A DNA stretch of 33,188 bases from Oscillospiraceae bacterium (GCA_028706415.1 JAQWBK010000006.1:1-33188), one strand, 5' to 3'. Positions 11,520-33,107 are shown, counted from the stretch's first letter. The notes: generated by a model not told the origin, from the sequence alone. Made by a program: numbers and translations.

Positions 11520-11582
11520 ATAATACTCCTTTTTTATATCAGAAATTGTTGGTAATATTATTATAATAAACGGTAATACTAA

Positions 11583-11741
11583 AGGTCACCTCTAAAAACC
11601 CCTTCCGGCGTCTTCCGGCACAATTACCGCCGGACTGCGTCAAACCTTCTCGTAATGCGGAAAGCATTGCTTCGTCGGCTTTCCTTTTCCGACAAAAATT
11701 CTGCTCGGAATCCGTTCAAAACAGGTTTTTAGAGGTGACCT
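11583..11741. mobile_element. Family 1 MITE-like element (full copy, ~159 bp)
   Basis: Terminal inverted repeats AGGTCACCTCTAAAAACC ... GGTTTTTAGAGGTGACCT. The internal sequence matches the reverse complement of 27589-27745 and 17064-17176. Confidence 0.8.
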
Positions 11742-21065: not shown

Positions 21066-24000
21066 ATGAGTGCTACAATAAAAAACATTGCCGATCTAAA
21101 TCGCATAAAAAATAATTACAACGATAAGCTTAATAAATATAAATTTCAGGTGTTGGTCTGCAGCGGCGGAGGCTGTGTTTCATCAAACTGCAGTCTTGTC
21201 AAGGATGCCATAATTGATGAAATCAATAAAAATAAACTGCAGGATGAGGTCACGGTGTTTGAAACCGGATGTATGGGAACCTGTGCTGTGGGACCTGTTA
21301 TGCTCATTCTTCCCGATAAAATATTCTACACCGAGCTGACGCCCGAAACTGCACGATACATAATAAAGAGTCACCTCATCAAGGGGATTATTCCGGAGCA
21401 GTACACATTTTATGATAAGTCGCTGCTTAAGCATGTGCCCAACATAGATGATATTGATTTCTTTAAAAACCAGGTCAAAATTGCATTAAGAAACTGTGGC
21501 ACCATGGATTATCAAAGTCTTGATGCTTATATCGCCAGAGACGGATATTTTGCTGCCCAAAAGGCTATCTCATCAGACAGAATGAAAATCATCCAAGAGG
21601 TTAAAAAATCCGGACTAAAAGGCCGCGGCGGCGCCGGCTTCCCCACGGGTATAAAGTGGGAGGCAGGTTATAATGCCAAAAGTGATTTAAAATATATTGT
21701 ATGCAATGCCGACGAGGGGGATCCCGGTGCATTTATGGACCGGAGCATTATTGAGGGAGACCCCCATACCCTTATCGAGGGCATGACTATTGGAGGTTAT
21801 GCAATAGGTGCGAGTGTCGGCTATGTCTATGTGCGAGCCGAATACCCTATTGCAATAGAACGCCTTAAACCCTCCATCCAAGAAGCCAGAAAACGCGGTT
21901 TATTGGGATGTAAGATCTTTGGAAGTGATTTTGACTTTGATATTGAAATAAGAATTGGTGCAGGGGCATTTGTATGCGGTGAGGAGACCGCGCTTATGTC
22001 CTCAATCGAGGGGCAAAGGGGCGAACCCAGGCAAAAGCCTCCCCTCCCCTTCCAAAAAGGTTTGTTTGAAAAACCCACCATAATCAACAATGTCGAAACC
22101 TTTGCGGCGATACCGGTAATCCTTCTTAAAGGGAGCGAATGGTATTCGCAGTTCGGCACAGAAAACAGCAAGGGCACCAAGGTTTTCGCCCTTGCAGGTG
22201 ATGTTGTCAACACAGGTATTATTGAAGTGCCTATCGGTATGCCCTTGGGCGATATTCTTTTTAATATCGGCGGCGGAATGCAGAATAAAAAGAAATTTAA
22301 ATCCGCCCAAATCGGGGGGCCGTCCGGCGGATGTATCACCCAGGATAATCTTAATGTATCCACCGATTATGAATCCCTCACAAAACTGGGCGCAATTATC
22401 GGCTCGGGCGGTCTTATTGCCATGAATGAAGACACTTGTATGGTGGATACGGCTAGGTTTTTTATGGATTTTATTCAGGATGAATCCTGCGGCAAATGTG
22501 TCGCCTGCCGTCTGGGAACCAAAAGGATGCTTGAAATCCTTGAGAGATTAACCCGCGGTGATGGTCGTCAGGGGGATATTGAGCTGCTTGAGGAGCTTGG
22601 CGAAACCATTAAGGAAACCGCAATGTGCGGTCTCGGGCAAACCGCTCCCAACCCTATTTTAAGCACCATACGATACTTCAGAAATGAATATGAAGAGCAT
22701 ATTCACAATAAATATTGCCGTGCGGGAGTATGCTCCGAGCTTTTCATTTCACCCTGTGAAAACACCTGCCCTGCAAATGTAAATATCCCCGGTTACCTCT
22801 CCCTTGTCGCCGAAGGTCGGTTTATTGAAGCTTATAATCTTATCAGGCAGGAAAATCCTTTCCCTGCCGTATGCGGACGGATATGCACCCACCCATGCGA
22901 AGATAAATGCCGCCGCGGTACAATAGATGAGGCGGTGGCAATCTGCGATATTAAACGATTTGTTGCCGATTATGCCCATAAAAACGAAATGCCATTTTCA
23001 AACGATCTTGTATTCCCCAAAAACGGTAAAAGCGTGGCCGTTATCGGTGCCGGAGCTTCCGGGCTTACATGCGCATATTATCTTGTGCGCATCGGTTATT
23101 CGGTGGATGTGTTTGAAGCGCAGCCGGTTGCCGGAGGGGTATTGGCCTTCGGAATACCCGAATACAGGTTGCCAAAAAAAGTTTTGGAGCATGAGATTGA
23201 TCTGATAATCCAAAGTGGTGTAAATATTCATCTAAACACCGAGGTTGGCAAGGACATTGATTTTAAAAAGCTGAAATCCCAATATGACTCTGTTTACATA
23301 GCAACCGGAACACAGTTTCCTCAGCTGATTAAAATTCCGGGTGAAAAACTCACCGGGGTCATACACGGCATTAACTTCTTAAAAATGGTCAGCCTAGAAG
23401 ATGATATTATCCTGGGCAAAACCGTTGCGGTAATTGGAGGAGGAAACACCGCAATTGACTCTGCCAGAACGGCTTTGCGGCTAGGTGCTTCCAAGGTAAT
23501 GATGATTTACAGACGAAATATCGAAGCAATGCCTGCCAGCGAAACAGAAATACATGAGGCGGTTACCGAGGGGGTTGAAATCATTCAGCTTGCCGCCCCC
23601 ATAAGGTTTATAGCGGGCAAGGATGGTTGCTTATCAAAAATTGAATGTGTAAAAATGAAACTGGGTGAATTTGATAAGACGGGACGAAGAAAATCGGTTG
23701 AGATTGAAGGTTCAAACTTTATTTTGGATGTGGATAATGTAATCCCTGCCGTCAGCCAGTATTCGGATCTTCCGTTTGTTCGTAAGGATGAAATCAACAT
23801 TACATCCTGGGGGACCTTTTTGGTGGACGACGACACACTTATGACCACCATGGAGGGTGTCTTTGCCGGCGGAGATGTCGCCAGAGGACCGGATACCGTA
23901 ATAAGTGCGATAGCCGACGGTAAGAAGGCGGCCGAATCAATCGACAGGTATCTTGGTGGCACAGGAAAACTAAACAAGGGCAATCCGATTGATATTCCCG

Positions 24001-24164
24001 ATAAACATGATGAAGATGAAATTATTGCTCACAGTCGGTTCCCTATGGAGATGCTTAATATGGAGGACCGCACTAATTCCTTTAACGAGGTGGTACTTGG
24101 ATATCATAAGTTAAACGCAATGGCCGAAGCAATGCGCTGTCTGCATTGCGACAGGAGGTGTTGA
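21066..24164 (+). CDS. NuoF/HydB-like flavoprotein fused to a GltD/NfnB-like FAD-NADPH oxidoreductase
   Basis: N-terminal thioredoxin-like 2Fe-2S (CSGGGCVSSNC...CMGTC), FMN/NAD site GLKGRGGAGFPTGIKWE, CNADEGDPGAFMDR, 4Fe-4S ESCGKCVACR, then from ~22713 a GltD module (CENTCPANVNIPGY, CGRICTHPCEDKC, VAVIGAGASGLTCAYYL, VAVIGGGNTAIDSARTALRLGA, GVFAGGDVARGPDTVISAIADG). Confidence 0.95.
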   Translation: MSATIKNIADLNRIKNNYNDKLNKYKFQVLVCSGGGCVSSNCSLVKDAIIDEINKNKLQDEVTVFETGCMGTCAVGPVMLILPDKIFYTELTPETARYIIKSHLIKGIIPEQYTFYDKSLLKHVPNIDDIDFFKNQVKIALRNCGTMDYQSLDAYIARDGYFAAQKAISSDRMKIIQEVKKSGLKGRGGAGFPTGIKWEAGYNAKSDLKYIVCNADEGDPGAFMDRSIIEGDPHTLIEGMTIGGYAIGASVGYVYVRAEYPIAIERLKPSIQEARKRGLLGCKIFGSDFDFDIEIRIGAGAFVCGEETALMSSIEGQRGEPRQKPPLPFQKGLFEKPTIINNVETFAAIPVILLKGSEWYSQFGTENSKGTKVFALAGDVVNTGIIEVPIGMPLGDILFNIGGGMQNKKKFKSAQIGGPSGGCITQDNLNVSTDYESLTKLGAIIGSGGLIAMNEDTCMVDTARFFMDFIQDESCGKCVACRLGTKRMLEILERLTRGDGRQGDIELLEELGETIKETAMCGLGQTAPNPILSTIRYFRNEYEEHIHNKYCRAGVCSELFISPCENTCPANVNIPGYLSLVAEGRFIEAYNLIRQENPFPAVCGRICTHPCEDKCRRGTIDEAVAICDIKRFVADYAHKNEMPFSNDLVFPKNGKSVAVIGAGASGLTCAYYLVRIGYSVDVFEAQPVAGGVLAFGIPEYRLPKKVLEHEIDLIIQSGVNIHLNTEVGKDIDFKKLKSQYDSVYIATGTQFPQLIKIPGEKLTGVIHGINFLKMVSLEDDIILGKTVAVIGGGNTAIDSARTALRLGASKVMMIYRRNIEAMPASETEIHEAVTEGVEIIQLAAPIRFIAGKDGCLSKIECVKMKLGEFDKTGRRKSVEIEGSNFILDVDNVIPAVSQYSDLPFVRKDEINITSWGTFLVDDDTLMTTMEGVFAGGDVARGPDTVISAIADGKKAAESIDRYLGGTGKLNKGNPIDIPDKHDEDEIIAHSRFPMEMLNMEDRTNSFNEVVLGYHKLNAMAEAMRCLHCDRRC

Positions 24165-24165
24165 T

Positions 24166-26190
24166 ATGATAAACCTGACGATTAACGGTAAAAAAATATC
24201 CGCTCCAAAGGGCGCTACAATTATGGAGGCTGCAAAGGCAAACAACATCAACATTCCCAACCTTTGTTATCTTCAGGATGTACATAAATTCGGTTCTTGC
24301 AGGATTTGTGTTGTGGAGGTAAAGGGGGCAAGAACACTTCAGGCATCCTGCATGACGGCTGTATCAGAAGGCATGGAGGTATACACCAACTCTGACAAGG
24401 TGCGCAAGGCACGCAAGGTTCTGTATGAGCTTATTTTATCCGACCATTCCCAAGAATGCCTTAGCTGTAAACGCAACAAAAGCTGTGAACTTCAAGAGTT
24501 GGGAAAAACTCTGGGGGTCGATGAAACCCGATTTCACGGGGAACGCTCCGATTGCGTTATCGATCTGTCCCCCTCAATAATACGCGATACATCCAAATGT
24601 ATTCTTTGCAGAAGATGTGTAACCGCCTGCAACATAATTCAGGGCACCGGTGTCATAAATGCTCAAAATAGAGGCTTTAAAACGGTTATCGGCACCGCCA
24701 TGGATTTACCTCTGGGGGATGTAAACTGTATATTCTGTGGGCAATGCACGGTTGTCTGCCCTGTTGATGCTTTAAAGGAAGCCGATGCAATTGAAGATGT
24801 ATGGGATGCAATCAATAACGAGAAAAAATATGTTGTTGCCCAGACTGCTCCTGCAATTCGTGTAGCTTTAGGAGAGGAATTTGGTTATGAGCCGGGTACT
24901 CTTGTCACGGGCAAGCTGGCGGCCTCCCTGCGTGCACTTGGGTTTGACAGCGTATTCGACACCAACTTTACGGCGGATCTAACCATCATGGAAGAGGGAA
25001 CCGAGCTTTTAAATCGGCTGAAAAACCTGGTAACCGGCAAAGAGGCAACCCTACCCATGATTACAAGCTGCAGCCCGGGCTGGATAAAATATGTTGAGCA
25101 TACCTATCCCGAAAAACTGGACCATTTATCCACCTGTAAATCTCCCCACACCATGATGGGCGCGCTGATCAAATCCTATTATGCAAAATTAATTGATACC
25201 GACCCTGGGAATATTTATGTTGTATCGATAATGCCATGCACAGCAAAGAAATTTGAAATATCGCGCCCTGAAATGAAAAACGACGATATGCCTAATGTTG
25301 ATGCGGTGCTGACCACAAGGGAGCTTGCATCAATGATAAAGGGGGCGGGCATCGATTTTGTAAAGCTACCGGATGAGGAATTTGATAATCCTCTGGGTAT
25401 GTCAACCGGCGCCGCCGATATTTTCGGTGTTACCGGAGGAGTTATGGAGGCAGCCCTGAGAACGGTTTATGAGCTTGTAACCGGTCGGGAAATTCCGTTT
25501 AAAGGCTTGCATGTTACACCGGTTATCGGTTTCGACAGGGTAAAGACTGCCGAAATAATAATTGAAAACCCATTACCCGAATATGCGGCATTTGACCAAG
25601 TTACATTAAAGGTTGCCGTAACAAGCGGTACCAAGGGTGCAAAACAGTTAATGGATGAAATAAGTACAGGTAAATCTAAATATCATTTTATTGAGGTTAT
25701 GGGGTGTCCGGGCGGCTGTATCACCGGCGGAGGACAGCCCAGGTCGCAGGATCCGAAAATCGGTGAAAAAAGGTTGAAAGGACTTTATAAAGAGGACGAG
25801 GGCAAGCCTCTCAGAAAATCACATGAAAATCCATATATAAGCGCAATTTATAAGGAATTCTTGGAATATCCCGGAAGTCATATTTCTCATGAACTCCTTC
25901 ATACACATTATGTAAGACGGGGTATATTCAACGAGCTAACCGACGAAAGATTCGCAGTAAATGGGGGTATAAAATTGGTGAAACACAAGTTGAATGAAGG
26001 CTCTGAGCAGAGCAGTCGGATGTCAGACCGAAGAAAGCGAATTCGCGAAGAATCCGAATCGGAAGAACTGCTTGTTTTAAGAGCCGAAAATGAAAAGTTG
26101 AAAAATGAGCTTGCAGACACTCTTGAAACGGTGGAAATATTCAAACAGGTAATTGCCGATCAATCCAGTAACAAGAACAAGCATGATTGA
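24166..26190 (+). CDS. hydA: [FeFe] hydrogenase catalytic subunit HydA with C-terminal coiled-coil extension
   Basis: 2Fe-2S domain, HSQECLSCKRNKSC His/Cys3 cluster, CILCRRCVTAC and CIFCGQCTVVCPV 4Fe-4S, H-cluster motifs TSCSPGW, MPCTAKKFE, EVMGCPGGCITGGGQP; tail KRIREESESEELLVLRAENEKLKNELADTLETVEIFKQVI. Confidence 0.97.
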   Translation: MINLTINGKKISAPKGATIMEAAKANNINIPNLCYLQDVHKFGSCRICVVEVKGARTLQASCMTAVSEGMEVYTNSDKVRKARKVLYELILSDHSQECLSCKRNKSCELQELGKTLGVDETRFHGERSDCVIDLSPSIIRDTSKCILCRRCVTACNIIQGTGVINAQNRGFKTVIGTAMDLPLGDVNCIFCGQCTVVCPVDALKEADAIEDVWDAINNEKKYVVAQTAPAIRVALGEEFGYEPGTLVTGKLAASLRALGFDSVFDTNFTADLTIMEEGTELLNRLKNLVTGKEATLPMITSCSPGWIKYVEHTYPEKLDHLSTCKSPHTMMGALIKSYYAKLIDTDPGNIYVVSIMPCTAKKFEISRPEMKNDDMPNVDAVLTTRELASMIKGAGIDFVKLPDEEFDNPLGMSTGAADIFGVTGGVMEAALRTVYELVTGREIPFKGLHVTPVIGFDRVKTAEIIIENPLPEYAAFDQVTLKVAVTSGTKGAKQLMDEISTGKSKYHFIEVMGCPGGCITGGGQPRSQDPKIGEKRLKGLYKEDEGKPLRKSHENPYISAIYKEFLEYPGSHISHELLHTHYVRRGIFNELTDERFAVNGGIKLVKHKLNEGSEQSSRMSDRRKRIREESESEELLVLRAENEKLKNELADTLETVEIFKQVIADQSSNKNKHD

Positions 26191-27571: not shown

Positions 27572-27588
27572 TTTACTAAACTTGTTTA

Positions 27589-27745
27589 TGGTCACCTATA
27601 AAAACCTGTTTTGAACGGATTCCGAGTGTAATTTTTGTCGGGCAAGGAAAGACGACGATGCAATGCCTTCAGCATTACGAGGAGGTTTGACCAGTCCGGC
27701 GGAAATTGTGCCGGAAGACGCCGGAAGGGATTTTAGAGGTGACCT
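27589..27745. mobile_element. Family 1 MITE-like element (full copy, inverted relative to 11583-11741)
   Basis: GGTCACCTATAAAAACCTGTTTTGAACGG...CCGGAAGGGATTTTAGAGGTGACCT; TA on both flanks. Confidence 0.8.
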
Positions 27746-27826
27746 TACATTATTATTAAAAATCATTTTGTTATTTATCACCATATTATTGCAGGGTTTT
27801 GAAGTATTTATTTTTATATTATTTGC

Positions 27827-27855
27827 TTGACCAAACTGGATGATGCCTGTATAAT
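27827..27855 (+). promoter_or_regulatory. Sigma-A promoter for carAB
   Basis: TTGACC - 17 nt - TATAAT. Confidence 0.8.
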
Positions 27856-27924: not shown

Positions 27925-29004
27925 TTGGAGCAAACGGCTTATCTTATTCTTGAAAACGGGCAGATTTTTAAGGGACAGCGTTTTGGTGCTGACGGTGATA
28001 TTACCGGAGAAATTGTTTTTACCACATCGATGATCGGCTATCTCGAAACATTGACAGACCCGAGTTATTACGGGCAGATGGTTGTTCAAACATTTCCTTT
28101 GATTGGTAATTACGGCGTTATTCCTTCGGATTTTGAAAGTGATTCATCCCATGTTAAAGCTTATATCGTCAGAGAATGGTGTCAGGAGCCCTCTAATTTT
28201 CGTAGTGAGGGAAATCTTGACGCTTTTTTAAAGTCCCAAAATGTTATAGGTATTTATAATATTGATACCCGTGCACTGACCAGAATATTGCGGGAATACG
28301 GAGTTATGAACGCCAGGATAACATCCTCGGCGGAGGATATCCAAGCCTCTCCAGAAAATTTGAAAAAATATAAAGTTGATAATGCTGTTTCCTCTGTCAG
28401 CCGAGATAAGCCATATGAACTAGAAAACTCGGCCGGTAAATACAAGATAGTGCTATGGGATTTCGGCGCAAAAGCTAATATTCGCCGCGAGCTGGAAAAG
28501 CGGGAATGCCAGGTCATTGTGGCACCTGCTGGAGCCACCGCCAGCGAAATTATTGCAATGAAGCCGGACGGTGTTGTGCTGTCTAACGGTCCCGGAGATC
28601 CAAAAGAAAATCCGGAAATAATTAAAGAGATTAGCAAGCTGTGCGAAGCAAAAATACCGATGTTTTCGGTCAGCTTGGGGCATCTGCTGCTCGCCCTTTC
28701 ACAGGGAGCCCAAACCGTCAGGTTGAAATACGGCCATCACGGAGGCAATCAGCCTGTAAAGCAGATTTCAACCGGCAGATTATATGTCACAAGCCAAAAC
28801 CATAATTATGCGGTTGACGGCAACACCCTCCCCAAAAATGCCGCCATCAGCTTTGTCAATGCAAACGACGGTACCCCCGAAGGTATCGAATATTCAGATA
28901 TGCCGGCATTTTCGGTACAGTTCCATCCGGAAGCCGCCGCAGGTCCTCTGGATACCTGCTTTATGTTTGACAAATTTATAGATATGATTAAGGAGGGCCG
29001 CTGA
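27925..29004 (+). CDS. carA: Carbamoyl-phosphate synthase small subunit homologue with nucleophile Cys replaced by Ser
   Basis: CarA N-domain (MIGYLETLTDPSYYGQMV), class I GATase fold with VLSNGPGDP, FSVSLGHLLLAL in place of GICLGHQLLAL, YGHHGGNQPV, QFHPEA. Start inferred at TTG 27925 (GGAGGG SD); the track start 27859 lies at the predicted transcription start. Confidence 0.94.
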   Translation: MEQTAYLILENGQIFKGQRFGADGDITGEIVFTTSMIGYLETLTDPSYYGQMVVQTFPLIGNYGVIPSDFESDSSHVKAYIVREWCQEPSNFRSEGNLDAFLKSQNVIGIYNIDTRALTRILREYGVMNARITSSAEDIQASPENLKKYKVDNAVSSVSRDKPYELENSAGKYKIVLWDFGAKANIRRELEKRECQVIVAPAGATASEIIAMKPDGVVLSNGPGDPKENPEIIKEISKLCEAKIPMFSVSLGHLLLALSQGAQTVRLKYGHHGGNQPVKQISTGRLYVTSQNHNYAVDGNTLPKNAAISFVNANDGTPEGIEYSDMPAFSVQFHPEAAAGPLDTCFMFDKFIDMIKEGR

Positions 29005-29006
29005 AC

Positions 29007-32000
29007 ATGCCATTGAATAAAGAATTAAAGAAAATACTTGTTATCGGTTCGGGTCCGATTGTTATAGGACAAGCTGCCGAATTTGATTATGCCGGCACCC
29101 AGGCATGTCGTGCCCTCAAAGAGGAAGGTATTGAGGTAGTTCTTGTAAACTCCAACCCTGCCACCATAATGACCGACAATGCCATGGCCGATAAGATTTA
29201 TATAGAGCCCCTTACCCCCGAAACATTAAAGCGGATAATATTGCTTGAAAAACCTGACAGTGTGCTTTCAACCCTGGGGGGGCAAACCGGTCTTACTTTG
29301 TCCATGCAGCTTGCAAAGGAAGGCTTTTTGGAGCAGAACAATGTCAGACTGCTGGGGGCCAATCCTGTTACAATTGATAAGGCGGAAGACAGGCAGATGT
29401 TCAAGGATACCATGCTTGAAATCGGTGAACCGGTCATCCCTTCCCTTGTGGTCACCGATGTAGAAGCTGCCGCAAAATTTGCAGATGAAATCGGATATCC
29501 CGTAATCATCCGTCCCGCATTTACATTGGGCGGAACCGGTGGCGGTATTGTCAATAATCAACTCGAGCTTCATGAAATTGCAAGCAACGGTCTTCGTCTA
29601 TCCCCCATCACCCAGATACTTGTAGAAAAATGTATTACCGGCTGGAAGGAAATCGAGTTTGAGGTCATGAGGGACAGCGCGGGCAGCGTTATTACCATCT
29701 GCAGTATGGAAAACTTTGACCCTGTGGGCGTTCACACCGGGGACAGCATAGTAATCGCTCCGGCAGTTACCCTTTCTGATAAAGAGTACCAAATGCTAAG
29801 GTCGGCAGCCCTCAACATTATCACCGCTCTTGAATTAGAGGGTGGGTGTAACTGCCAGTTTGCTTTAAAGACCGACAGCTTTGAATATGCGGTTATCGAG
29901 GTAAACCCGCGTGTATCGCGTTCTTCCGCTCTGGCATCCAAGGCTACCGGATACCCCATTGCAAAGGTAGCAGCCAAGATCGCAATAGGATATACGCTTG
30001 ATGAGATTAAAAACGAAGTTACAGGCAAAACATCCGCCTGCTTTGAGCCCGCACTTGATTATGTAGTGGTCAAGCTGCCAAAATGGCCTTTTGATAAATT
30101 CGTATATGCAAAGCGCACTCTGGGAACCCAAATGAAGGCAACCGGAGAGGTTATGGCAATCGGCGTAAGCTTTGAACAAGCCATAATGAAAGCGGTGCGC
30201 GGGGCAGAAATATCCCTTGACAGTTTAGGGCTTCCAAAACTGGCCGAGCTGAGTGATGAGGAGATAGCAAGCCGTCTGTCCAACTGTGATGATGAGCGGC
30301 TGTTTGTAATCTTTGAAGCAATCAAGCGCGGGATTTCGTGTGAAAGAATAAACGAAATTACCGGAATTGACCTTTGGTTCATGTATAAGCTTAAAAATCT
30401 TGCAAATCTTGAAAAGATGATGGCCGCCGGACTTACAGATGACCTTTATCTTGAAGCAAAGAAGCGCGGATATCCCGACAAGGTTATTGAGCGCATTTCC
30501 GGCTGTAAAGTAGAAAAGCCTGCCAGGGCAGTGTTTAAAATGGTGGATACCTGTGCTGCCGAATTTTCAGCTCAGACACCTTATTTCTACTCAACCTATG
30601 ATCAGGAGAACGAAGCTGCAGAATTTATCTCAAAAAATAAAAGCGATAAAAAGACTGTTATTGTATTCGGTTCGGGGCCCATCCGTATCGGGCAGGGTAT
30701 AGAATTTGACTATGCCTCGGTTCACTGTGTATGGGCACTTAAAAAGGCAGGGTACGAGGTTGTTATAGTCAACAACAATCCCGAAACGGTATCAACCGAT
30801 TTTGATACCGCCGACCGACTTTATTTTGAACCTCTCACAACCGAGGATGTAATGAACATCATAAACACCGAAAAACCGTATGGTGTTGTGGTGGCCTTCG
30901 GCGGACAGACTTCCATTAAGCTTGCAAATTATCTTGAATCCCAGGGTGTACGCATACTCGGTACCCCCGCCGACAGCATCGATGCCGCCGAAGATAGGGA
31001 GCGTTTTGACGCTCTGCTTGAAAGGCTGAATATTCTCCGCCCCGAGGGCACCACCATAATGAATACAGAGGATGCTCTCACGGCCGCCAATGCACTTGGC
31101 TACCCTGTTTTGATGCGTCCGTCTTATGTGTTGGGCGGTCAGAATATGATAATCGCTTTCTGCGACGAGGATATTATCGAATATATGAAAATAATCCTCT
31201 CACACGGTATCAGTAATCCGGTTTTGATTGATAAATACCTGATGGGTATCGAAGTCGAGGTTGATGCAATCTGCGACGGTGAGGATATTCTTATACCCGG
31301 CATTATGGAACATATTGAACGGGCGGGAATTCATTCGGGCGACTCAATTGCTGTATACCCCTCGTGGAATGTCAGCGGGCAACAGATTGAACACCTTACC
31401 GAATACACCAAAAACCTGGCACTATCACTGAGTACGCGTGGACTGATTAATATTCAATATGTTATTCACGAAAACAAGATATTCGTAATAGAGGTTAATC
31501 CCCGTTCCTCCCGTACCATTCCATATATCAGCAAGGTGACCGGGGTTCCGATGGTGGATCTTGCAACCCGCGCCATGCTGGGCGAAAAATTAAAGGATAT
31601 GGGTTACGGCACCGGTCTGTATCGCACCCCTCCCTATATAGCGGTAAAGGTTCCGGTTTTCTCGTTTGAAAAGCTGATTGATGTAGATACCCATCTTGGC
31701 CCCGAAATGAAATCCACCGGCGAGGTTTTGGGTATCGGAAAATCCCTTGACGAAGCTCTTTATAAAGGATTGATTGCAGCCGGTTATGAAATGAAAAAGC
31801 AAGGCGGGGTATTGGTTACAGTACGCGACACCGACAAGGCTGAAATAGTTGATACCACCAAACGGTATGTCGAGCTTGGATTTACCATTTATGCAACCAA
31901 AGGTACTTCTGAAATTTTGGCAGAGGCCGGAATTGATTCCGAGGTTGTAAGCAAAATCCATGAATCCGATAAAAATGTAATCACCCTTCTGGAAAGCGGA

Positions 32001-33044
32001 AAAGCCAACTATATTATCTCAACCTCATCCAAAGGAAGACTACCAAGTCGTGACAGCGTTAAAATAAGGCGTAAAGCCATTGAACTTGCCATCCCCTGCC
32101 TGACTTCTATTGACACCGCAAATGCGCTTGCAAACAGCCTTAGAAGCCGCTATACCCAATACAGCACCGAGCTTGTAGACATAAACAACATGAGAAGCGA
32201 GCACATGAAGCTTAATTTCACAAAAATGCAGGGCAGCGGGAACGATTATATCTATTTCAACTGTTTTGAGCAAGAAATCACAAGTCCGGAGTCGTTGAGT
32301 GTCTTTCTTTCCGACCGTCACTTTGGCATAGGCGGCGATGGTGTTGTTCTAATCTGCCCATCTGATATTGCCGATGCAAAAATGCGCATGTTTAATCTTG
32401 ACGGCAGCGAGGGAAAAATGTGCGGAAATGCAATACGCTGCGTCGCAAAGTATTTATATGATAATGATATTGTAAAAAAAGATCGGCTAACAATTGAAAC
32501 TCTCAGCGGACTAAGGAAATTAAAGCTGTATTTCCAAAACGGAAAGGTAAACTCGGCCATGGTGGATATGGGAAGGGCCGAGCTGGTACCTTCAAAAATT
32601 CCTGTTAGGATGGAAGGAGACAGTATTATCTCCCGTCCTGTCAAAATAGACGGCAAAGATTATGACATAACATGCGTATCGGTAGGTAATCCTCACTGCG
32701 TTGTATTTATGGATCATCTTGATAATATCAACATCGAAAAGGTCGGGCCGATGTTTGAAAACGCCCCCCTCTTCCCCGAACGCGTAAATACTGAATTTGT
32801 AACGGTAATAAACCGCACCACCTTAAAAATGAGGGTATGGGAACGCGGCAGCGGGGAAACATGGGCCTGCGGTACCGGTGCATGTGCGGCAGCAGTTGCA
32901 GCCGTGTTAAATGGATACTGTCCCAAGGATGAAGAGATTACAGTCCGCTTAAAAGGCGGCAATCTCATTGTCAGATATTCGGACGATACCATATATATGA
33001 CAGGAAATGCGATCAAGGTTTTTGAGGGCACTGTTGAAATTTAA
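29007..33044 (+). CDS. carB-dapF: Carbamoyl-phosphate synthase large subunit fused to diaminopimelate epimerase (CarB-DapF)
   Basis: Residues 1-~1066: complete CarB (VIGSGPIVIGQAAEFDYAGTQACRALKEEG, IRPAFTLGGTGGG, second half VFGSGPIRIGQGIEFDYASVH, MRPSYVLGGQNM). Residues ~1067-1345: complete DapF (MKLNFTKMQGSGNDYIYF, MCGNAIRC, SVGNPHCVVF, WERGSGETWACGTGACAAA). Single uninterrupted frame. Confidence 0.96.
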   Translation: MPLNKELKKILVIGSGPIVIGQAAEFDYAGTQACRALKEEGIEVVLVNSNPATIMTDNAMADKIYIEPLTPETLKRIILLEKPDSVLSTLGGQTGLTLSMQLAKEGFLEQNNVRLLGANPVTIDKAEDRQMFKDTMLEIGEPVIPSLVVTDVEAAAKFADEIGYPVIIRPAFTLGGTGGGIVNNQLELHEIASNGLRLSPITQILVEKCITGWKEIEFEVMRDSAGSVITICSMENFDPVGVHTGDSIVIAPAVTLSDKEYQMLRSAALNIITALELEGGCNCQFALKTDSFEYAVIEVNPRVSRSSALASKATGYPIAKVAAKIAIGYTLDEIKNEVTGKTSACFEPALDYVVVKLPKWPFDKFVYAKRTLGTQMKATGEVMAIGVSFEQAIMKAVRGAEISLDSLGLPKLAELSDEEIASRLSNCDDERLFVIFEAIKRGISCERINEITGIDLWFMYKLKNLANLEKMMAAGLTDDLYLEAKKRGYPDKVIERISGCKVEKPARAVFKMVDTCAAEFSAQTPYFYSTYDQENEAAEFISKNKSDKKTVIVFGSGPIRIGQGIEFDYASVHCVWALKKAGYEVVIVNNNPETVSTDFDTADRLYFEPLTTEDVMNIINTEKPYGVVVAFGGQTSIKLANYLESQGVRILGTPADSIDAAEDRERFDALLERLNILRPEGTTIMNTEDALTAANALGYPVLMRPSYVLGGQNMIIAFCDEDIIEYMKIILSHGISNPVLIDKYLMGIEVEVDAICDGEDILIPGIMEHIERAGIHSGDSIAVYPSWNVSGQQIEHLTEYTKNLALSLSTRGLINIQYVIHENKIFVIEVNPRSSRTIPYISKVTGVPMVDLATRAMLGEKLKDMGYGTGLYRTPPYIAVKVPVFSFEKLIDVDTHLGPEMKSTGEVLGIGKSLDEALYKGLIAAGYEMKKQGGVLVTVRDTDKAEIVDTTKRYVELGFTIYATKGTSEILAEAGIDSEVVSKIHESDKNVITLLESGKANYIISTSSKGRLPSRDSVKIRRKAIELAIPCLTSIDTANALANSLRSRYTQYSTELVDINNMRSEHMKLNFTKMQGSGNDYIYFNCFEQEITSPESLSVFLSDRHFGIGGDGVVLICPSDIADAKMRMFNLDGSEGKMCGNAIRCVAKYLYDNDIVKKDRLTIETLSGLRKLKLYFQNGKVNSAMVDMGRAELVPSKIPVRMEGDSIISRPVKIDGKDYDITCVSVGNPHCVVFMDHLDNINIEKVGPMFENAPLFPERVNTEFVTVINRTTLKMRVWERGSGETWACGTGACAAAVAAVLNGYCPKDEEITVRLKGGNLIVRYSDDTIYMTGNAIKVFEGTVEI

Positions 33045-33062
33045 TCGATAATAATACGAAAA

Positions 33063-33107
33063 TGGGGTTGCCGTGTTTACGGCAACCCCAAAATTATTTT
33101 TATACTG
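33063..33107 (+). terminator. Intrinsic terminator after carB-dapF
   Basis: TGGGGTTGCCGT-gttt-ACGGCAACCCCA followed by an AT/T-rich tract. Confidence 0.85.

Follow-up and report, generated by a model that had tools for sequence, protein, structure and literature searches.

An in-frame carB-dapF fusion of Clostridia with repeated loss of a catalytic cysteine in its DapF half

Gene fusions usually join steps of one pathway. In the window, i.e. the whole stretch of DNA analyzed here (33,188 nucleotides from an Oscillospiraceae bacterium, the entire contig C57 of assembly G000, which is 79% complete in 146 contigs), the carbamoyl-phosphate synthase large subunit (CarB) is followed in the same frame by diaminopimelate epimerase (DapF). 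The two enzymes share no metabolite, yet their fusion is ancient, occurs widely among gut and rumen Clostridia and in some cases is the sole source of both. This raises the question of whether the gene encodes a genuine bifunctional protein and which role the DapF half plays in it. In the open literature searched, no description of a CarB-DapF pairing was found; a prior notice is possible in subscription papers or database annotations. The analysis makes it very probable that carB::dapF is a genuine, ancient fusion of single origin, produced as one polypeptide and most likely bifunctional in the lineage of the window.

The original prediction, made from the sequence of the window, described one frame of 1345 codons containing a full CarB and then a full DapF. 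The frame scan together with the NCBIfam and Pfam searches confirmed this arrangement (Table 1): the frame has zero internal stops, and the order of the Pfam domains is CPSase domains, MGS and DAP_epimerase. Residues 1-1049 match PRK05294 with 1490 bits and TIGR01369 with 1442 bits (NCBIfam; cut-offs 599 and 1027, respectively), the full-length TIGR01369 match reaching 1441.5 bits for residues 4-1044 (curated cut-off 1027). TIGR00652 (DapF) covers residues 1070-1343 with 291.7 bits (cut-off 114.65). The ATP-grasp catalytic motifs EDR, RP and EVNPR/EMNPR are kept in both CarB halves in the alignment with E. coli CarB (1bxr). The CarB part is like TIGR01369 and the E. coli enzyme in its full length, all domains and the catalytic motifs, and differs from E. 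coli-type CarB by the C-terminal DapF and by a partner CarA without the Cys nucleophile. The DapF part is like known DapF proteins (TIGR00652; 9mro, 2otn, 1bwz) in fold, both catalytic Cys and the DAP-contacting residues, whereas it is fused at its N-terminus. These contacting residues (N, N, N, N, E, R, GN and GT), a set taken from solved structures (PMC12039745), are complete in the window DapF and 100% conserved in the 90 fused copies that keep their Cys.

Table 1. Coordinates of the fused gene, its parts and the adjoining features in the window.
Feature	Position	Strand	Description
Sigma-70-like promoter before carA	27827..27855	+	TTGACC-17-TATAAT, 11/12; consensus scan, number of sites in the region not above chance
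carA, CPSase small subunit	27925..29004	+	359 aa; TTG start after GGAGGG; PRK12838 454 bits
carB::dapF fusion	29007..33044	+	1345 aa; Shine-Dalgarno sequence GGAGGG overlaps carA 3' end
CarB part, residues 1-1062	29007..32192	+	native C-terminus TELVDINNM; TIGR01369/PRK05294 to residue 1049
MGS-like allosteric domain of CarB, residues 946-1033	31842..32105	+	PF02142; E. coli alignment
Junction, residues 1055-1071	32169..32219	+	exactly 17 residues in 107/107 fused loci aligned; predicted ordered, extended
DapF part, residues 1067-1345	32205..33041	+	both catalytic Cys present; TIGR00652; PDB DapF matches
Catalytic Cys1139	32421..32423	+	C73 of H. influenzae DapF; most frequently lost in relatives
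Catalytic Cys1288	32868..32870	+	C217 of H. influenzae DapF
Terminator-like hairpin after the fusion	33063..33090	+	12 pairs, T-rich tail; consensus match, sites in the region not above shuffles

For residues 550-1345, a structure was predicted with AlphaFold using 61 sequences (mean pLDDT 86.5, pTM 0.85, the latter being the only measure of confidence in the domain arrangement). The linker blocks of the model are extended and have a pLDDT of 87-90. Its parts match E. coli CarB and the closed form of DapF (9mro; TM 0.92), and no CarB-DapF fusion was found among the 50 best PDB matches listed.

About half of 60 relatives carry the fusion as one stop-free frame of about 1340-1430 codons. The search for CarB followed by DapF across Clostridia, proposed with the original prediction, was carried out with a junction profile (A1) at an E-value meant to shut out either half alone. 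It returned unbroken fusions in 143 of 394 genomes (86 of 169 genera) of the order sample, in 58 of 391 genomes (38 of 223 genera) of the class sample and in 8 of 200 genomes of the phylum sample. Named carriers include Ruminococcus albus KH2T6 and Ruminococcus sp. FC2018. A stop codon or frameshift at the junction was also sought in the related genomes; the frame is open in every relative with this architecture, which is far beyond chance. The copy in G011 looks split because its junction contains a run of N, behind which the usual junction sequence follows.

As an alternative to a true fusion protein, a loss of the carB stop codon with internal initiation at ATG 32190 or 32205 had been considered, and the window copy does have ATG codons at both positions. 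Across the family, the codon at the position of the DapF Met (32205) is ATG, GTG or TTG in 31 of 107 loci and a non-start codon in the other 76, and even weak Shine-Dalgarno-like 4-mers are found in just 29 of 107. The upstream candidate (residue 1062) is ATG in 88 of the 107 loci and a Leu codon in the remainder; in unfused CarBs the same C-terminal position is often I, L or V. Since the DapF start codon is not conserved, internal initiation is not a conserved feature and is unlikely to be general. An assembly error or a recent stop loss, combined with DapF synthesis from an internal start codon, is highly improbable and was rejected on account of the identical in-frame junction in hundreds of genomes, the constant linker length and the single clade. 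The true fusion protein, in turn, is backed by its one origin, the constant length of the linker (17 residues), intact copies in the hundreds and several near-complete genomes in which the fusion is the sole CarB and the sole DapF.

In the CarB tree (FastTree, 162 rows), all fused CarBs fall into one clade with a support of 100. Two unfused rows are nested within it, G055 (on a long branch) and G038, neither with dapF directly downstream, and apparently represent two later fissions; a third nested row counted as unfused (L018) comes from the N-interrupted copy of G011. The unfused sister CarBs end exactly at a TELVDIN-like motif. On the evidence of these sequences, the fusion has one origin, in Clostridia, and wholly retains the native CarB C-terminus. 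A tightly coupled carB-dapF operon had been named as the likely ancestor, and this arrangement was recovered in a genome of the window's own genus that has no fusion (G005): the carB stop codon TAA and the dapF ATG are separated by 1 base. Unfused carB and dapF one to a few bases apart were found in other lineages as well, and carB, dapF and dapL are consecutive by their coordinates in G113, G125 and G077. Given such close unfused neighbours, the fusion most likely arose by in-frame joining of adjacent carB and dapF genes in one operon.

Proximity of dapF to carAB extends beyond the fusion, since in four loci of unfused relatives (L117, L118, L121 and L123) dapF is found on the opposite strand, at most a few kb from carAB. 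Two contigs labelled Treponema sp. and Brevinematales (L098 and L106) carry the fusion and are nested among Clostridia sequences, which would reflect either mislabelled bins or horizontal transfer.

The window carA ends two bases upstream of the fusion, and carA is the upstream neighbour in 86 of 92 loci. With the hairpin behind the fusion (Table 1), the two genes look like a two-gene unit here. Common downstream neighbours in the family are pyrG (CTP synthase) and dapL (LL-DAP aminotransferase). Because DapL makes the DapF substrate, a neighbouring dapL supports a working epimerase half in those loci. A glutamine synthetase-like gene and a response-regulator-like protein are encoded ahead of carA in some loci, the latter being ANTAR-type by a reading of its sequence that has no tool match.

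Among the near-complete genomes with the fusion, 18 of 49 are without other DapF. Five of these 18 (G035, G311, G318, G366 and G037) likewise lack a second CarB as well as meso-DAP dehydrogenase (Ddh), and both Cys are kept in four of the five. The assembly of the window, at 79% completeness, encodes Ddh but neither a further CarB nor a further DapF, and no TIGR03542-type dapL was found in it above the cut-off; epimerase activity may therefore not be essential there. In the loci L087 and L132, a second, stand-alone dapF adjoins the fusion itself. The near-complete genomes G318 (L134) and G204 (L158) have a Cys-lost fusion with no other DapF and no Ddh, and G204 is additionally without a TIGR03542-type dapL.

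In the CarA of the window, the nucleophile of the glutaminase triad is changed from Cys to Ser (AGC, 28672-28674; motif FSVSLGH), whereas the His and Glu are kept. The Ser aligns with Ser269 of the E. coli C269S mutant (1c30), which is the best PDB match. Judged by this residue, the partner of the fused CarB would not be a glutamine-hydrolysing CarA. In human CPS1, the replacement of Cys by Ser294 explains the inability to use glutamine (PMC4655335). Human CPS1 resembles the window system in the Ser of its small-subunit part and also in having a C-terminal domain as control site, the allosteric switch in CPS1 (PMC4655335), whereas CarA and CarB of the window are separate chains and an extra DapF domain is present. 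The Ser in place of the glutaminase Cys suggests that the window synthase probably uses ammonia. Within the family, the Cys is lost in 25 of 116 CarAs with 16 changes on the tree, often together with His or Glu, and CarAs of the same genus have N (L002), G (L004) or S (L005) at this position. This recurrent loss is probably a repeated switch to ammonia-dependent CPS in these Clostridia.

With both catalytic Cys of DapF and the CarB motifs checked intact, the window copy is probably bifunctional. The CarA without its nucleophile would probably just act as a scaffold, the CarB part would make carbamoyl phosphate from free ammonia and the DapF part would convert LL-DAP to meso-DAP. There is no hint of channelling, because the substrates are unrelated. 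The benefit may lie in a single transcription unit (carA-carB::dapF, with pyrG and dapL frequently behind it in relatives) that firmly couples the supply and the regulation of nitrogen-rich precursors needed for pyrimidines, arginine, lysine and peptidoglycan. Since DapF is held on a short ordered linker to the allosteric domain of CarB, it could also act non-catalytically.

The original prediction that the epimerase half looks active agrees with the window copy, in which both Cys contexts are kept as described (C1139 and C1288), and does not hold for the family at large. At least one catalytic Cys is lost in 57 of 147 fused DapFs and in 0 of 53 stand-alone DapFs (Fisher p = 7e-10, relatedness not corrected), the commonest loss being C1139 to A, G or S. 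The CarB tree shows 17 changes of the Cys state, and in one clade, made up of 27 fused rows and the G055 fission, every member is Cys-lost. Replacement of a catalytic Cys hinders or abolishes epimerisation by DapF (PMC12039745; PMC4227774). With a Cys gone in 57 of 147 copies, DapF catalysis is not the reason why the fusion is kept everywhere.

In the 27-row Cys-lost clade, the DAP-contacting side chains are conserved to 93% on average compared to 73% for the domain. The main exception is N1079, which binds the proximal amine and is D in 10 of the 27 rows. Raw dN/dS values between distant fused copies were discarded, as synonymous sites are near saturation, and relative amino-acid distances were used. 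The DapF/CarB relative distance was found to be 1.31 for Cys-lost and 1.28 for Cys-kept pairs (1.89 and 1.67, respectively, for close pairs). These similar ratios indicate that the DapF domain is not decaying under relaxed selection. Cys loss is associated with the presence of a second DapF (raw Fisher p=0.0006) and with that of either a second DapF or Ddh (p=0.015, likewise raw), but neither link is significant on phylogenetically independent pairs, so that both are suggestive only. Some members of the family are likely to retain the DapF half for a non-catalytic role, e.g. DAP sensing or scaffolding.

A non-catalytic function of DapF has been described for E. coli, where the activation of RppH by DapF persists after mutation of both Cys (PMC4227774). 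This complex (PDB 6d13) is similar to the proposed role in that DapF is a cysteine-independent regulator of its partner, whereas it is non-covalent and involves an unrelated enzyme. DapF with a second function is also represented by the bifunctional DapF/glutamate racemase family NF038284 (NCBIfam), which in contrast has two activities in one domain; the window protein scores 120 bits against its cut-off of 350.

The uniformly Cys-lost clade is mostly located in arginine operons: of the 19 loci examined, 13 have argF immediately before carA, and argC, argJ, argB and argD are found farther upstream in several. The CarB of this clade departs from the rest of the family mainly in the MGS domain, at positions that are K944, 1005-1011 (S1005-R1011) and R1021 in the window. 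These align with the nucleotide-effector loop of E. coli CarB, known for its UMP/IMP contacts, and the effector site is degraded in the clade. The loss of nucleotide control, the move into arginine operons and the loss of epimerase catalysis thus appear to go together in one clade; the coincidence is one event and does not show a cause.

In this large clade, with its Cys lost and the DAP pocket kept, DapF is probably a ligand sensor or a structural domain. On the former reading, which we put forward tentatively and at less than an even chance, carbamoyl-phosphate synthase would have in the fused DapF an allosteric domain that senses DAP, or one that readily turns into such a sensor. As the DapF clamp opens and closes on DAP, the movement would be passed via the ordered linker to the MGS domain, so that carbamoyl-phosphate output would be tied to DAP/lysine status, and catalysis would be dispensable given another route to meso-DAP. 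The Cys loss in fused copies but in none of the 53 stand-alone ones and its many state changes, the conserved pocket with nearly equal distance ratios, the degraded effector site in the same clade, the location of this clade mostly in arginine operons and the precedent of Cys-less DapF with RppH (PMC4227774) are in favour of sensing. However, the pocket residues could be kept partly for the fold, the substitution of N1079 affects a ligand contact, the window copy itself is not Cys-lost and the link to a second DapF disappears on independent pairs. A purely structural or dimerisation module that stabilises CarB oligomers, for which ligand binding would be irrelevant, is unlikely. It would agree with the constant linker, the domain being kept after catalytic loss and a degraded DapF half that is still fused in G204, and DapF-fold proteins dimerise. 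Against it stand the selective retention of ligand-contacting side chains in the Cys-lost clade, the CarBs without DapF in the sister lineages and the two apparent fissions.

Extended further, the sensing reading would have the fused DapF repeatedly turned into a DAP-sensing pseudo-epimerase that allosterically controls the synthase and replaces nucleotide control in the arginine-operon clade. This is a rather doubtful proposal; if true, it would be a direct regulatory link from cell-wall and lysine precursors to arginine and pyrimidine synthesis. Through the repeated loss of one Cys with an intact pocket, nature offers seemingly active versions alongside seemingly inactive ones, so that the reason for keeping unrelated enzymes fused can be tested directly in cultured Ruminococcus albus. 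DapF is a long-standing antibiotic target. Furthermore, lysine and peptidoglycan pathways may be mispredicted in many genomes by pipelines that take the fused domain for an active DapF.

Elsewhere in the window, a palindromic repeat of about 160 bp was found at 27580-27760 (+) and 11582-11740 (-), which folds far better than shuffled sequences (z -5.7). About 40 copies are present in the genome (44 match rows), several of them at contig ends, and the repeat may be read as MITE-like or RNA-like. One copy is located between a perR-like gene and carA. A regulatory RNA upstream of carA was rejected, as there is no Rfam match and the stable hairpin at this site is the copy of the genomic repeat. 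In addition, positions 21066-24164 encode a NuoF/GltD-like fusion protein of 1032 aa with an N-terminal 2Fe-2S ferredoxin part, directly followed at 24166-26190 by a group A6 NADH-dependent [FeFe] hydrogenase. This gene pair (21066-26190) is a probable electron-bifurcating hydrogenase unit.
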